Of a stretch of 38,523 bases of DNA, positions 23,890-30,664 are shown piece by piece. Position numbers and translations under genes: made by a program. Position 1 is the stretch's first letter. Each line of letters starts with the position of its first letter. The stretch lies in contig DATLGO010000106.1 of NCBI GenBank assembly GCA_035540375.1, positions 1 to 38,523 on the forward strand. The letters run 5' to 3'. The notes under the pieces were generated by a model. It saw only the letters and a list, made by a program, of their open reading frames with translations, was not told the origin of the DNA and did no database searches. The stretch comes from Candidatus Thermoplasmatota archaeon. Lineage in GTDB: Archaea; Thermoplasmatota; SW-10-69-26; JACQPN01; JAJPHT01.

Positions 23890-25320
23890 TCAGTGGTGGT
23901 GCCCGCCGCCGCCGTGGTCGTCGTGACCGCCCATCGCGGCCGCGATGTCGGCCGTCGTGGGCACGAGGTCGTAGACCACCGTCAGCTCGAGCGTGTAGCT
24001 CAGGAGGACGCCCTGCTGGCCGACGACCTCGAGTCGGTACGTCTCGCCGTCGACCGGGATCGCGGAGAGGATCTGCAGCGACTTGTCGGCGGTCGCCTCC
24101 GCGACGGCCGTCGCGTTGCCCTGCTTGTAGAGCTTGAGGTGCGCGAGCGCGGGGAGGCCCTCGACGACGCTCTTCACCGTCAGGTTCGCGAAGAGGAGGC
24201 CGTCGCGCGCGAGCGAGAAGGCGTGCTTCATGGGCGCCTGCTCCGCAGGCGTCCCGTCGAGATCCTTCGCGGCGATCGTGATGTTGCCCGCGTACAGGCG
24301 CGCGAAGGTCGGATCGGGCTTGCCGCCGACGAGCACGAACGCGCTCGCGGAGGACGCCGCGAGCTTCGGGTCCTTGACCGTCAGGCGGATCTCGAAGTAG
24401 CCCTCGGTGTCGAACGGGATGGTGACGACGGGCGCGTTCGCGCCGACGGCGGCGAGCGCGGGCGTGAACGTGCTCTGCGTGGCCGTGTGCCACAGCTCCT
24501 TCGTCGGCTCCTCGTTCTTCCAGACGACCGTGGTGCCGGGCTTGACGACGATCTCGGCCGGGTGGAAGGCCATGTCCTTCATGACGACCGTGACCTTGCC
24601 CGAGGCGGCCGTAGCGTCCGTCGAGGACACGATGACCTTGCCGAGCATGTTGGGGTGGGGGTGGCAGTGGTACTCGTACACGCCCTCCTCCGTGAACTTC
24701 TGCGAGCCGCTCTTGCCCGGGTCGATGCGATCCGTGTTGAACCCGCCGGCCGCGTGCGCGTGCGCGCCGCCGTCGCCGTGGCCCGCGTGCTCGCCCGCGT
24801 CTTCCGCGGGGGGCTTCGCGGCGCCAAGGCCCCAGGCGTACGTGAGGGGCTCGCCGTCGGGATCGGAGGAGGCCGAAGCGTCGAAGGTGATGGACTCCCC
24901 GGGGTTGACCCAGAGGGGGGCGGTGGCGAGGGCCGCGGTGGGCACGGCGTTGCGGCCCGATCCGACGACGACGTTCTTCGTCGCCGTCGCGGTGGCGCCG
25001 TCGGCCGTGATGACGAGGCGCGCGACGTACGTGCCGTCGTAGGCGTAGCTGTGCGTCGCCTTGGAACCCGTCGCGGTCTTGCCGTCGCCGAACGACCACG
25101 TATAGGCGACCGACTTGGCGCCCGCGAGCTCCGACGGCGCGGCGTCGAAGGTGAAGACCGTGCCCTTGTCGCCCTTCGCGGGCGTCATCGTGAAGGCGGC
25201 GACGAGGCCGCCGTCCGTCGAGGACTTCTTGAGGGCGTCGGCCTCGGAACCGGGCTGACCGACGCAGCCGGCGAGCGCGGCGCCGACGAACAGGAGGGCT
25301 GCGAGGATGGCGTGCTTCAT
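23890..25320 (-). CDS. exported lipoprotein with PKD domains and a swapped-order cupredoxin
   Basis: A 476-residue surface protein with lipobox L-A-G-C (Cys19). A PKD domain spans about 38-120 (T-W-S-F-G-D-G, S-Y-A-Y-D-G-T-Y). A second PKD-like region starts near 127 (F-D-A-S-A-S-S-D-P-D-G, L-T-Y-A-W) but is broken by a long insert before its closing strands (F-D-T-E-G-Y-F-E-I). The insert begins with a His-rich loop, then Y-E-Y-H-C-H-P-H-P-N-M: the cupredoxin C-terminal half with Cys219, His222, Met225. After it comes the N-terminal half (M-A-F-H-P-A-E-I-V-V-K-P-G-T-T-V-V-W-K-N) with the other His ligand, His278. A C-terminal beta domain (~345-460) ends in a His/Asp/Gly tail. Likely binds copper at the cell surface. 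ATG 25320 follows a TATA-like patch (~25355). Confidence 0.85.
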   Translation of the reverse strand: MKHAILAALLFVGAALAGCVGQPGSEADALKKSSTDGGLVAAFTMTPAKGDKGTVFTFDAAPSELAGAKSVAYTWSFGDGKTATGSKATHSYAYDGTYVARLVITADGATATATKNVVVGSGRNAVPTAALATAPLWVNPGESITFDASASSDPDGEPLTYAWGLGAAKPPAEDAGEHAGHGDGGAHAHAAGGFNTDRIDPGKSGSQKFTEEGVYEYHCHPHPNMLGKVIVSSTDATAASGKVTVVMKDMAFHPAEIVVKPGTTVVWKNEEPTKELWHTATQSTFTPALAAVGANAPVVTIPFDTEGYFEIRLTVKDPKLAASSASAFVLVGGKPDPTFARLYAGNITIAAKDLDGTPAEQAPMKHAFSLARDGLLFANLTVKSVVEGLPALAHLKLYKQGNATAVAEATADKSLQILSAIPVDGETYRLEVVGQQGVLLSYTLELTVVYDLVPTTADIAAAMGGHDDHGGGGHHH

Positions 25321-25445
25321 GATAGGCCCAGCTTTCGAGCACCCTTTGGCGCCCTTTATCCTTTGTGGTGAAACCGTTCCCCGGGAGTCACGGTTTCTCC
25401 GGGAAAACAGGCTTTCCGTGGATCGTCCACGGGGGAGGCAATGGC

Positions 25446-25454
25446 CTTATACCG
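25446..25454 (+). promoter_or_regulatory. TATA-like box for the AN1-rhomboid gene
   Basis: CTTATACCG centred 31 nt before the ATG at 25481. Upstream, 25372-25393 partly resembles the dispersed repeat core. Confidence 0.45.
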
Positions 25455-25480
25455 AGGCCCGCCTACTCGTCGCCGTTCCG

Positions 25481-26380
25481 ATGCCTGCGCAGTGCGAGAC
25501 CTGCCGACGCGACGAATACATGCCGTTCGTCTGCAAGTTCTGCAAGGGTCGCTTCTGCGCCGAGCACCGTCTCCCGGAGAACCACGCCTGCCGCGGCCTC
25601 GACGACTACCGCGAGAAGGTCCGCGCGGAGGGGCGCTTCCTCTCCGCCGACCCGGGAAGCGAGGTGTTGAAGCCGCAGGTCCGGCCGAGCGCGGAGATCT
25701 CGGCGCGCCTCGCCGAGCTGCGGCAGAAGCTCGACGGGCACGCCGCGCACGCGATGCTCGCGATCATGGGCGGCGTGTTCGTCCTCCAGATCCTCGCCGG
25801 CATCGCGGGCCTCGACGGGCTCATGGGCTTCGCGTTCCTCCTCGGTCAGGACTTCCTCTTTCGCCCGTGGACGCTCGTGACGAGCATCTACGCGCACAGC
25901 GGATTCTACCACCTCTTCGGCAACGCGATCGTGCTCTTCTTCTTCGGCCCGGCCCTCGAGGGCCTCATCGGGTCGAAGCGGTTCACGTGGCTCTTCCTCG
26001 GGACGGGCGTCCTCGGCGGCCTCGCGGAGATCCTCTTCATCATGGGGCTCCAGACGCAGGGCCTCATCGCCCCCGGCGGCGTCGCCGTCCTCGGCGCCTC
26101 GGGCGCGATCATGGGGGTCCTCGGCACGCTCACGATCCTCGCCCCGCGCCTGAGCGTCCTCGTGTTCTTCGTGATCCCCGCGCCGCTCTGGGCGATCACG
26201 ACGGTCTACGCATTCCTCGACGTGATCGGCATCTTCTCGCCGGGCCGCGGCGTCGCGAACCTCGCGCACCTCGCGGGCCTCGCGGCCGGCATGCTGTACG
26301 CGAAGTACCTGCACAGCCAGGGGCTGCGCGCCTACGTCCAGCGCCCGCAAGGAGCGTCGTCGTGGCGCCGGTACTTCTGA
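25481..26380 (+). CDS. rhomboid protease with N-terminal AN1 zinc finger
   Basis: A 299-residue intramembrane serine protease. Residues 5-37 form a textbook AN1 zinc finger (C-x2-C-x9-C-x2-C-x4-C-x2-H-x5-H-x-C) on the cytoplasmic side. Six or more membrane helices follow with H-L-F-G-N (His144, Asn148), the catalytic Ser207 in G-A-S-G and the catalytic His263 in L-A-H-L-A-G. This AN1-rhomboid layout is known in archaea. AN1 fingers bind ubiquitin-like or protein partners in eukaryotes; the role here is open. The ATG at 25481 is chosen since the zinc finger starts directly after it and the TATA-like box is 31 nt before. It is flanked by copper-related genes but on the opposite strand. Confidence 0.93.
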   Translation: MPAQCETCRRDEYMPFVCKFCKGRFCAEHRLPENHACRGLDDYREKVRAEGRFLSADPGSEVLKPQVRPSAEISARLAELRQKLDGHAAHAMLAIMGGVFVLQILAGIAGLDGLMGFAFLLGQDFLFRPWTLVTSIYAHSGFYHLFGNAIVLFFFGPALEGLIGSKRFTWLFLGTGVLGGLAEILFIMGLQTQGLIAPGGVAVLGASGAIMGVLGTLTILAPRLSVLVFFVIPAPLWAITTVYAFLDVIGIFSPGRGVANLAHLAGLAAGMLYAKYLHSQGLRAYVQRPQGASSWRRYF

Positions 26381-28018
26381 TCACTCCGAGACCTGGATGC
26401 GCCAGAACAGCGTGACGTCCGGTCGCCCTTCGAGCTCAAGGTAGAGCCCGACGTCCCACGCGCCGGGCGTCGAGAGATGGGCGCCGTGGGCGACCCACGT
26501 TCCCGGGGATCCTCCGCCCGCCGCGGGCGCCACGCCCCGCCCGAGATCCCGCTCGGCGAAGATGAATTCGAACTCGGCCGACAGGACGCCCGCGGGCGGC
26601 TCGCCCGTCGCGAGGTCCACGACGCGCGCCGAGACGCGGTTCACGCCCGCGGCGGCCGGGACGACGACGAGCGTTCCCTCGAAGCCGCCCGCCGTCGTGG
26701 TCGAGGTCGCCGACCCGGGCGCGCCGTAGCCCGGCGGCGGGAGCGCGCCGAGCACGGCCGCGAGAACGACCACCACCATGCCGAGGGAGAGCTCGAGACG
26801 CACCGAGCGCGCGAGCTTCCAGATGACGGACTCCTCGCCGCGACGGATGCGGGGCTCGAGCACGTACCGGTTGTAGGCGCCGAGCGCGAGGAGCGGCAGG
26901 ACGAGCGCGGCCTTGATGGCGACGAGCCGGCCCCATCCGCTCTCGACGTAACCCTCGAGGTTCGGAACGTGGACGTACGAGGAGAGGCCGCCCGCGATGA
27001 CGAGCACGGGCACCGCGACGAAGGCGATCGCGGAGAAGCGCGGCACGAGCGCGCGCGACCACGCGACGCCGCCCTGTCGCGCGAGGAGGGCGCCGAGCGC
27101 CGCGAGGCCGCCGAGCCATATGCTCGCCGCGGTGAAGTGGATCCAGTCGAGGCCGACCCCGAGCCAGCGCGGCGAGACGCCGGCGGCGTGCGACGAGAGC
27201 GACGCCGCGATGAGCGAAACGACCCCCGCGACGAGCGCGATGCGCCAGGCGAACGGCCTGACGTCGCCCGTGCGACCGCGGCCCGCGAGAAGCGCGCCGA
27301 AGGCGACGACGGCAAGAAGCGCGCGCACCGCGAAGAGGTTTCCCTCCCGCGTGAGCGCGGTCGCGACGATCGCCTCGGGGCCGAGGGCGGTGAACGCGAC
27401 GTCGTGGAGCCGCGCGGCGACGGCGAGGAACTGCGCGAGGACGCCCGCGAACGCGACCACGAGGCCGACGATGGCCACGCGGGGGAGGACCCATCCGCCC
27501 GCGCCGGCATGCTCGCCGCGCGCCACGAACAGCGCGAAGAACGGAACGCCGACCGCGAGCGCGGCGCCGATGAACGAGGCGGCCTTGCCCGCAAGCTCGG
27601 GGATCTCGGGCACCGCGACCTCGCTTGCGCCGGCCCCGCCGACGGGGACCGTGCCGTTGCCGACGGCGAACCCGAAGATGCCGCGCGTCGTGTGGCCGTC
27701 GACGGTGCTCACGACCTTCCAGGTGACGGTGTAGCCTCCGTCGGGGAGTGCCGCCTCGAGGGGCATGACGAGCGTGCGCGGATCGTCCGCGACGCGGGGC
27801 GGGCCGCTCACGATCCGGCCGCGGGCGTCCGCGACGGCCGCCTTCGCGAAGGCGGGCTCGAGCGGCTCTGTGAAACGGAGGTGGATCTCGCGCGGCGCCT
27901 CCGGCGCGGCGGAGTTCGCGGGCGGGTCGCTCGCAAGGAGGTTCGCGTGCCCGGCCGCCGCGGGCACGAGCGCGAGGAGCGCGACGAAGGCGAGGACGGG
28001 CGCGACGCGCATCGTCAC
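26381..28018 (-). CDS. CopC-CopD-YtkA membrane protein (copper handling), paralogue 1
   Basis: A 545-residue protein. The signal peptide ends in V-P-A-A-A-G before His24 (H-A-N-L-L-A-S), so cleavage would give an N-terminal His, a CopC copper ligand. The CopC domain (about 24-125) contains the second hallmark V-D-G-H-T-T-R-G. Eight or so membrane helices (about 150-430) form the CopD part, and a periplasm-like YtkA/FixH-type beta domain closes the protein. The order resembles Bacillus YcnJ, a copper importer, so copper transfer across the membrane is the expected role. The start is GTG 28018 overlapping the previous stop (GTGA), or ATG 28012. It is the last gene of a three-gene operon with the two small exported proteins upstream. 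Confidence 0.88.
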   Translation of the reverse strand: MTMRVAPVLAFVALLALVPAAAGHANLLASDPPANSAAPEAPREIHLRFTEPLEPAFAKAAVADARGRIVSGPPRVADDPRTLVMPLEAALPDGGYTVTWKVVSTVDGHTTRGIFGFAVGNGTVPVGGAGASEVAVPEIPELAGKAASFIGAALAVGVPFFALFVARGEHAGAGGWVLPRVAIVGLVVAFAGVLAQFLAVAARLHDVAFTALGPEAIVATALTREGNLFAVRALLAVVAFGALLAGRGRTGDVRPFAWRIALVAGVVSLIAASLSSHAAGVSPRWLGVGLDWIHFTAASIWLGGLAALGALLARQGGVAWSRALVPRFSAIAFVAVPVLVIAGGLSSYVHVPNLEGYVESGWGRLVAIKAALVLPLLALGAYNRYVLEPRIRRGEESVIWKLARSVRLELSLGMVVVVLAAVLGALPPPGYGAPGSATSTTTAGGFEGTLVVVPAAAGVNRVSARVVDLATGEPPAGVLSAEFEFIFAERDLGRGVAPAAGGGSPGTWVAHGAHLSTPGAWDVGLYLELEGRPDVTLFWRIQVSE

Positions 28019-28498: not shown

Positions 28499-28960
28499 TC
28501 ATCGCTCCCGGCCGCGCGCGAGGGCGATGGCCGCGAAGGCAAGGAGCGCCCACGCGACGCCGCCCGCGGGCGTCCGCGCCGGCTCGGGTTCGCCCGCGAC
28601 GACGAGCTCGCCGCGCATCCCGGCCTCGCGTTCGCCGGCCTTGGTCGAACGGTATTCGAACGTGCCCGCCTTGTCGGCGACGAAGGTCAGGGTCGCGGTC
28701 TGGCCGGGGGCGAGGTCGCCCGTCGAGTGGCCGAGCCCCTCGATCGCGAAATCGTGGGTGCGCTTGTTCGTCTCGACGTTCGCCACGACGAGCGTCACCT
28801 CCGACCCGCGCTCGACCTCGATGGACTCGGGCGCGATGTGGAGGGCGTTCGGGAACTCGTGGAGGTAGACGAAGACCTTCCTCGGCTCCGCGGCCTCGGC
28901 GGCGGGCGTCGCGAGGAGCGCCGCGAGGACGAGCGTCGCGAGGATCGCGCGGAAGGTCAT
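28499..28960 (-). CDS. exported cupredoxin-like protein lacking the copper Cys
   Basis: A 153-residue secreted protein. After the signal peptide, a plastocyanin-like beta domain has I-A-P-E-S-I-E-V-E-R-G-S-E-V-T-L and T-H-D-F-A-I (candidate His ligand). In the C-terminal loop the expected Y-x-C-x2-H-x2-M is replaced by F-E-Y-R-S-T-K-A-G-E-R-E-A-G-M-R-G: the Cys and His are gone and only a Met remains, so a type-1 copper site is unlikely. A C-terminal helix ends R-G-R-E-R. It heads the operon of the first CopC-CopD gene. The ATG at 28960 is favoured over 28987 because the TATA-like box (28983-28992) overlaps the latter and lies 29 nt before the former. Confidence 0.75.
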   Translation of the reverse strand: MTFRAILATLVLAALLATPAAEAAEPRKVFVYLHEFPNALHIAPESIEVERGSEVTLVVANVETNKRTHDFAIEGLGHSTGDLAPGQTATLTFVADKAGTFEYRSTKAGEREAGMRGELVVAGEPEPARTPAGGVAWALLAFAAIALARGRER

Positions 28961-28982
28961 GCGCGCGCCATGATCCGCGTTC

Positions 28983-28996
28983 GACATAACTGTTGC
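28983..28996 (-). promoter_or_regulatory. promoter with shared GCAACAGTTAT element, first copper operon
   Basis: GGCAACAGTTATGTC on the minus strand. Its AGTTATG forms a TATA-like box 29 nt before the ATG at 28960. Nearly the same element (GCAACAGTTTAT) precedes the exported-protein gene at 32251-32778. Confidence 0.4.
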
Positions 28997-30664
28997 CTAC
29001 CCGCTCGCGACGACCGGGACCTCGAAAACGAGCTTCCGGTACTCATCGGGCCTCTGCATGAGCACCCACACGCGCCATGTTCCGGGCTCCGTGAAGAAGG
29101 CGTCCTCGGCCACCCATTGGTCGAAGCCGACGCGCTCGGGCGTGAGGAGCGACTCGGGCTCGCGCTCGCCCGGGCCCGCCACCTTGAGCGCCACCTCGGT
29201 CCCTTCGGGAAGCGCCCCGCCTTCGAGCGGGTGGAGCGCGACGGTGATGCGTTGAAGACCCGCCGTGGGCGGATCGGGACGGATCGAAAGGGTCACGTGG
29301 GTCGTATCGGTGGTCGCGTCGCGCTGCCAGGCCGTCGGCCCCTGGGAGCCCGCGAGAACGTCCTGGTCGGGTGGCGGCGACGAGGCGAGGACCCCCGCGG
29401 CGACGAGCGCGAAGGCGAGAAGTCCCGTCTCGACGAGGACGAGGCGGCGCAGGACGCGGGGGCCGCCTTCGCCGCGCGCGAGGCGAGGGCCGATCCAGAG
29501 CCCGTTCGCCGCGCCGAGGAGCGCGAGGACGGCGACGAGCCCGAGCTTCGCGAGGATGGCGAGCCCGTACGTCGTCGACCACAGGTCGGAGATCCGCTGA
29601 ACGTGGAGGAAGGTCGCATAGGCGCCCGTGAGGACCAAAACCGCGACGCTCGGGATGGCGAGCGGCGTGAAGCGTCCGACGAGCCGGCCCGCTTCCCGCG
29701 CGTCGCGGCCGGGAAGCATCGCGACGAGGCCGACGATGCCGCCGAGCCAGAAGGCCGCGACGAGGAGGTGCGCGAGGTCCGCGCCGACGGCCGCGAGGCG
29801 GTTCTCGGAGACGGCGGCCGCGTGGCTTCCGAGCGCCGTCGCGACGAGCGCCGCGAGCGCGGCGGCCCCGCCCGCGACGGCGACGGAGCGCGGCGCGTCG
29901 CGGCGCCACGCGGCGTAGGCGAGCAGGGGCGCGGCGACGAGCGCGGCGCCCGCGCGCGCCGCAAGGAAGCCGCCGGCCTCCGTCTGGATGGCCGCCGCGA
30001 CGGTCATCTCGAGTCGCGCCGCGAAGGCGAGGAGCACGGTCGCGCCGCCCGCGACCGCAAGCAGCGCTCCCGCGGCGGCGGGCGCGAGGACGCGGCGCGG
30101 CCAGCGGGGTTCCCGCAGGACGGCGAGCGCGAAGAGGGGTAGGCCGAAAGCGAGGAACGCGCCCGCGTAGAAGACGCCCCGCGCGGCGCCCTCGCCGAGG
30201 ACCGCTCCGCCCTCATGCGAGCTGTGGTCGTGCGAGACGGGGTCGGCGGTGTAGCGCAGCGTGGCGTTCCCGACGCTGAACACGAACGACCCCTTCGCGG
30301 TGTGCGTATCGACGCTGAGCGTGCGCCACTCGACGACGTAGATGCCGTCGGTGAGCGGCTTCACGGGCACGCGGATGACGTTCGCTGCCGCGTCGTCGAA
30401 CTGGATGGGGCCTGCTTTCATCGCCTCGCGCGCGAGGGAGTGGACTTCCGCGTCCGTGTAGCGGCGCTCCACGTTTTCCGTGAAGCGGATTTCGACCACG
30501 TTCGTGCCGAGGTCGCCGCGGCCGTTCGGGGCCGGCGAGGCGGATTGGAGGACGGCGTGCGCTTCCGCCACGGGGGACAGCGTCAACGCTGCAAGAAGGA
30601 GCAATGGAAGGAGGAGCCGGCGGCGCGCGGCCGCCGGCGGGTCGGGCCGGCGCGTGGCGCTCAC
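28997..30664 (-). CDS. CopC-CopD-YtkA membrane protein (copper handling), paralogue 2
   Basis: A 555-residue protein with the same architecture as the 26381-28018 product. The signal peptide ends V-A-E-A before His36 (H-A-V-L-Q-S-A-S-P-A-P-N), a classic CopC mature start, and S-V-D-T-H-T-A-K-G gives the second CopC His region. A His-rich loop (S-H-D-H-S-S-H) links CopC to about eight CopD membrane helices, and a C-terminal YtkA-like beta domain closes the protein. The start is GTG at 30664 overlapping the stop of the upstream gene. Sequence divergence from the other copy is large, so the duplication is old. Copper uptake or transfer is the likely role. Confidence 0.88.
   Translation of the reverse strand: MSATRRPDPPAAARRRLLLPLLLLAALTLSPVAEAHAVLQSASPAPNGRGDLGTNVVEIRFTENVERRYTDAEVHSLAREAMKAGPIQFDDAAANVIRVPVKPLTDGIYVVEWRTLSVDTHTAKGSFVFSVGNATLRYTADPVSHDHSSHEGGAVLGEGAARGVFYAGAFLAFGLPLFALAVLREPRWPRRVLAPAAAGALLAVAGGATVLLAFAARLEMTVAAAIQTEAGGFLAARAGAALVAAPLLAYAAWRRDAPRSVAVAGGAAALAALVATALGSHAAAVSENRLAAVGADLAHLLVAAFWLGGIVGLVAMLPGRDAREAGRLVGRFTPLAIPSVAVLVLTGAYATFLHVQRISDLWSTTYGLAILAKLGLVAVLALLGAANGLWIGPRLARGEGGPRVLRRLVLVETGLLAFALVAAGVLASSPPPDQDVLAGSQGPTAWQRDATTDTTHVTLSIRPDPPTAGLQRITVALHPLEGGALPEGTEVALKVAGPGEREPESLLTPERVGFDQWVAEDAFFTEPGTWRVWVLMQRPDEYRKLVFEVPVVASG

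Follow-up and report, generated by a model that had tools for sequence, protein, structure and literature searches.

The lipoprotein gene at 23890..25320 on the minus strand of the window (the whole 38,523-nucleotide stretch of archaeal DNA that was analyzed) raises the question of whether a cupredoxin can occur with its two halves in swapped order and, in addition, nested within another domain. A first-pass annotation had proposed this arrangement, placing a Cys219-His222-Met225 half ahead of a half carrying His278 and both inside a single PKD-like domain, with two partial cupredoxins as the alternative. The gene was defined by its open reading frame and Pfam matches, has a clear coding signature (GC3 0.96), and specifies 476 amino acids. 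The order of parts is signal peptide/lipobox, PKD1, PKD2 split by the apparently permuted cupredoxin, C-terminal domain and His-rich tail.

Order of the cupredoxin halves

All parts of the gene lie on the minus strand. The signal peptide and lipobox (residues 1-19; 25264..25320; ...GAALAGC) end in the lipid-anchor Cys19 and are followed by an intact PKD1 at residues 46-117 (24970..25185), matched over positions 10-81 of the 85 in the PKD_4 profile. The opening part of PKD2 occupies residues 125-166 (24823..24948; FDASASSDPDG...TYAWGLG) and was recognized by PKD_4 and by Foldseek across the insert. A His-rich linker, residues 175-193 (24742..24798), was assigned as disordered from its sequence and low pLDDT; it is one of two His-rich stretches, standing directly ahead of the cupredoxin, the other being the C-terminal tail GGHDDHGGGGHHH. 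The C-terminal cupredoxin half comes first in the chain (residues 194-231; 24628..24741; Copper-bind 62-98 of 99, amicyanin 79-104) and holds the copper loop CHPHPNM with Cys219, His222 and Met225 (residues 219-225; 24646..24666), placed by sequence and by the alignment of 11 permuted domains. The joint linker SSTDATAASG (residues 232-241; 24598..24627) bridges the native C- and N-termini. The N-terminal half is second in the chain (residues 242-282; 24475..24597; Cupredoxin_1 14-60 of 104) and contains the predicted ligand His278 in LWHTATQ (24487-24489), a His invariant in all 11 aligned domains. The closing part of PKD2 (residues 297-332; 24325..24432) was located by a PKD match and by the strands of the model. 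The C-terminal domain (residues 334-476; 23893..24321), delimited from the sequence, ends in the His-rich tail; this region of about 130 residues matched no family in the Pfam scan.

In the Pfam scan, residues 197-231 matched Copper-bind profile positions 62-98 of 99 and residues 234-278 matched Cupredoxin_1 positions 14-60 of 104. Since the end of the one profile is matched upstream of the start of the other, the C-terminal half precedes the N-terminal half, and both the ligand residues and their order were as first annotated. Left in place, the halves gave E-values of 2.4e-7 and 1.4e-3; excised and rejoined in standard order, they matched Copper-bind at 1.7e-13 over 4-98 of 99. Then 11 domains suspected of permutation were scored in all their rotations against a profile built from 16 archaeal cupredoxins of ordinary order. 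The window domain scored 42.7 bits in native order and 78.7 bits when rotated at the joint, covering model positions 2-80 of 81. All 11 domains behaved alike: the native order matched half of the model at 27-44 bits, and rotation raised this to 48-85 bits with most or all of the model covered. In each, the best rotation point lay at or near the joint, where the copper-loop strand is followed by the first strand. Shuffled controls (n=327, all rotations) did not exceed 12.7 bits.

A profile search of the complete reading frames revealed no convincing third half, only one C-terminal half followed by one N-terminal half, which excludes tandem ordinary domains. In a PDB sequence search amicyanin was matched by the native sequence as two swapped stretches and by the re-ordered sequence as one, full-length; a profile of the permuted domains matched the best-scoring PDB chains as separate halves only. 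Both cupredoxin profile halves are present, as in any member of the superfamily, and neither the window protein nor its relatives have the N-terminal half before the C-terminal half. Once rotated, the sequence matches the ordinary family over its full length, as expected of a circular permutant, and the type-1 ligand pattern His...Cys-x2-His-x2-Met falls in conserved columns. Judged by sequence, the cupredoxin of the lipoprotein is almost certainly circularly permuted. Its Cys219, His222, Met225 and His278 would bind one copper, by analogy with amicyanin.

The interrupted PKD domain and predicted structures

PKD_4 was matched on both sides of the cupredoxin pair. The opening part alone gave 9.1e-8 over PKD_4 positions 4-42 of 85, and the closing part alone matched PKD positions 36-74 of 80 (E 0.002); with the insert removed, PKD2 matched PKD_4 at 6.9e-11 over 4-76 of 85, in agreement with the proposal that the pair interrupts one PKD-like domain. 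The AlphaFold model of the PKD2-plus-cupredoxin unit had a pLDDT of 85.5 overall and 88-98 over the cupredoxin blocks, falling under 50 in the His-rich linker (model residues 54-70, window residues 174-190). Foldseek aligned this nested model to solved PKD domains, with 86-residue targets spread over about 210 columns at TMt 0.79-0.82; the long gap made the E-values weak (0.003-0.03). Profile and fold thus both identify a PKD domain, and computation shows the two PKD parts modeled as one PKD fold. The cupredoxin is very probably nested within it.

The stand-alone relative from genome G003 was modeled from an 11-sequence alignment with a pLDDT of 94.5 and pTM of 0.85, and is shown by computation to be predicted as one compact domain. 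A Foldseek comparison of this model with the PDB and with BFVD (viral models) returned no match, as expected from an order-dependent aligner; the result is consistent with, and not proof of, absence of the permuted connectivity from the PDB. Together, profile re-ordering, homologues of the same order, AlphaFold confidence and Foldseek uphold the original proposal of a permuted cupredoxin nested in a PKD domain.

Relatives and gene neighborhoods

The suggested search for orthologues of the same order yielded 12 further proteins, each with the halves swapped and none with a third. PKD-type lipoproteins from three other sampled genomes account for four (G006:C220, G001:C15, G001:C35 and G213:C78), and eight are stand-alone. 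Seven of the latter are archaeal (G003:C54, G213:C131, G202:C4, G126:C12, G389:C64 and two in G076:C34) and have a signal peptide; most also have a membrane anchor at the C-terminus. The eighth is lipoprotein WP_049694956.1, annotated as plastocyanin/azurin family, encoded on plasmid pPS15-1 in Planococcus versutus, a cultured bacterium (L123:3743-4255, equal to NZ_CP016541.2:19216-19728); its chain terminates in WTNQDQVQHNVAFE, just past the His ligand. Its gene adjoins one annotated as copper amine oxidase. Pfam supports a split PKD in the window protein only: in G213:C78 the first half alone was supported and the closing half went unrecognized by Pfam, and both G001 proteins, like G006:C220, were classed as PKD-type by alignment, with no Pfam PKD match over the corresponding region.

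A profile scan of genome contigs with the permuted-domain alignment returned three loci, and a scan of viral contigs with the Planococcus protein as query found nothing. Several candidates were rejected. G001:C30, G004:C48, G002:C12 and G004:C137 had matched through the joint and proved to be full N-C-N-C units or separate genes; the Streptomyces and Shinella plasmid matches each held one full-length domain of ordinary order; and the Cenarchaeum locus L083 was an ordinary single cupredoxin. One record, L082 (JAJPHT010000016.1), is titled Proteobacteria bacterium Centralia_MAG_189; a genome search assigned it to the family of the archaeal genome that holds the window, and the title looks wrong.

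In the aligned archaeal permuted domains both His ligands are present in 11/11 and the Cys in 10/11; the window protein and three of the four PKD-type relatives retain all four ligands. In G006:C220 (L080:4277-5692, minus strand) the loop reads YSSDPHPGM, with Ser for the copper Cys and with His and Met kept, and long His-Asp repeats lie ahead of the domain and at the C-terminus. The G126 (L118:2658-3215, minus strand) and G389 (L051) proteins have a longer copper loop, CTPHPPHEGFPDFTG and CKPHSPEDGFTDFTG respectively, without Met at the axial position. Given these substitutions, some members may not be blue-copper proteins. His- or Met-rich tails occur in the window protein, G006:C220, G001:C15 and G001:C35.

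Two CopC-CopD fusions are encoded less than 6 kb from the lipoprotein gene on the same strand, at 26384..28018 (CopC 6.4e-19, CopD 9.1e-22) and at 29000..30640 (start approximate; CopC 1e-13, CopD 1.4e-19). Separating them from the lipoprotein gene is an opposite-strand gene (25307-26377, plus strand) for a rhomboid protease preceded by an AN1-type zinc finger (Rhomboid 1.6e-27, zf-AN1 9.8e-12); the starts of the rhomboid and lipoprotein genes overlap by 14 bases. Between the two fusions lies a gene (28502-28987, minus strand) for a cupredoxin-like protein of ordinary order (Cupredoxin_1 5.3e-9) without the copper Cys. The window also contains a TFS-like gene. Along with the archaeal relatives and a match to the archaeal small-subunit rRNA model over its full length, a family that responds to bacterial controls as well, this gene points to an archaeal host, probably of the phylum Thermoplasmatota.

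The other PKD-nested loci differ in their neighbors, with an aquaporin gene at G001:C35 and a peptidase-like gene at G006:C220. Among stand-alone genes, that of G126 (L118) adjoins a COX2-like gene and COX1, those of G076 (L119) adjoin Rieske, cytochrome b and glutaredoxin-like genes, that of G213 (L121) is near COX3-COX2-COX1 and CopC-CopD, and that of G003 (L077) is directly downstream of CopC-CopD. The two G076 genes stand in tandem after the Rieske/cytochrome b cluster (L119:6415-7518, plus strand), the second being very divergent (YACTYHPDEM). A COX2-like fragment, GEYMFLCTVFCGESQDASRGHGQTMHGQLVV, is found at the edge of the G003 stretch (L077:17677-17973, minus strand) and has no Pfam COX2 match.

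Function, origin and comparison with known systems

Computation shows that the halves are complete, single and swapped, and that other genera and families of archaea, as well as one bacterium, conserve this order. The window protein is, with good probability, an extracellular lipoprotein with a permuted type-1 (blue) copper cupredoxin of conserved swapped order inserted in a PKD surface loop, serving as an anchored electron carrier and/or copper holder. A fold built from two partial cupredoxins, lying apart or pairing with the halves of another molecule as a domain-swapped dimer, would leave each half recognizable alone, as observed, and tandem ordinary cupredoxins do occur in the same genomes (G001:C30); this reading is nevertheless very improbable, since there is one of each half per frame, the stand-alone proteins are built from these two halves only, the monomer is confidently modeled (pLDDT and pTM as above) and all 11 rotations rejoin the halves into one full-length profile. 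The alternative raised at first annotation is accordingly disfavored. Most genomes used here are draft assemblies, and mis-assembly or a frameshift might in principle have produced the swapped order; the chance of this is negligible given a single uninterrupted frame of high GC3 and independent relatives across several genera and families that keep the order at about 25-45% identity, together with the complete Planococcus plasmid.

For the permuted domain a blue-copper function is likely from its predicted ligands. Ligands and gene neighborhood slightly favor electron transfer as its role and make the handling of copper a lesser possibility. For the stand-alone members, respiratory or CopC-CopD neighbors in combination with conserved type-1 ligands suggest an anchored electron carrier of the blue-copper type. 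In the case of the window protein, with CopC-CopD within 6 kb and the opposite-strand rhomboid gene between, both electron transfer and copper holding are possible; holding copper along with the neighboring CopC-CopD is almost as likely as carrying electrons. A pure acquisition or chaperone role, in which the permuted site and the His-rich linker and tail pass copper to CopC-CopD (or, in the stand-alone case, to an oxidase CuA site) without any electron-carrier function, would suit the two fusions near the window gene, the CopC-CopD genes beside the stand-alone genes of G003 and G213, the His- or Met-rich tails, and the nearby oxidase genes, which also need a copper supply. It seems rather unlikely: the full Cys-His-His-Met set is the type-1 site typical of electron carriers, the PKD-nested loci of G001 and G006 showed no CopC-CopD, and the G076 pair belongs to a Rieske/cytochrome b cluster with no CopC-CopD noticed among the genes scanned in 16 kb. 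The Ser in place of the copper Cys in G006:C220 would also fit a PKD-nested branch that kept the permuted fold as a metal-free structural or binding module, an improbable reading in view of the intact ligands in the window protein and three of the four PKD-type relatives.

The permutation may have arisen by tandem duplication and subsequent trimming; the tandem ordinary cupredoxins of G001:C30, from the window's own family, show that the usual intermediate exists. The chain ends would thereby have shifted to the loop that follows the first His ligand, making the domain fit for plugging into a loop of another domain. Stand-alone members would then act as anchored carriers feeding an aerobic respiratory chain, and the His-rich PKD-nested forms would work with CopC-CopD at the cell surface, holding copper and/or passing electrons. 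A tree of re-ordered and ordinary domains did not reject a single origin (p-AU 0.41), with weak supports and an unsettled bootstrap. There is an even chance that the proteins represent an ancient, previously undescribed permuted blue-copper lineage of an archaeal phylum and Bacillota, serving as an anchored respiratory carrier and further inserted in PKD domains in some archaea, its termini brought together by the permutation on one face suited to plugging in.

Full-text literature yielded no natural circularly permuted cupredoxin, plastocyanin, azurin, blue copper or type 1 copper protein, most subscription papers being outside the scope of the search. The permuted stand-alone and nested proteins appear to be a real protein family of which no description was found. 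Profile searches annotate members as partial domains or plain plastocyanins, so their permutation readily escapes notice. Textbooks use cupredoxins to illustrate how a fold tunes a metal site and as a model in folding studies. The natural series of ordinary, permuted stand-alone, and permuted and nested forms would allow the role of connectivity in the rigid type-1 site to be tested, and the permuted cupredoxins offer ready-made insertable copper modules. Several of their genes lie in respiratory clusters of uncultured archaea and bear on the electron carrier used there.

Plastocyanin-like carriers have been posited beside complex III in Thermoplasmatota (PMC9038741); those proteins, encoded beside Rieske/cytochrome b genes, probably belong to the same phylum, and the passages retrieved from that source do not mention a swapped order. 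Circularly permuted imelysins (PMC3143127) set a precedent for natural permutation in a metal-related extracytoplasmic family, of unrelated, helical fold. By sequence the best solved relative is amicyanin (TIGR02657; PDB 1aac, 2qdv), which shares the C-x2-H-x2-M loop; amicyanin is free-standing and of ordinary strand order, unlike the permuted nested domain of the window protein, which scored 39.6 bits against the TIGR02657 equivalog cut-off of 110.2. The plastocyanin/halocyanin carriers (PF00127; TIGR02656; TIGR03102) have the same halves and ligands as the permuted family and resemble its stand-alone members in anchored extracytoplasmic location and respiratory context, whereas the permuted family differs in its swapped halves and PKD-nested variants. 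With known PKD domains (PF18911/PF00801; PDB 4tn9, 4aqo) PKD2 of the window protein agrees both by excision and by fold comparison, and it differs from them in the insertion of about 130 residues between its two parts.
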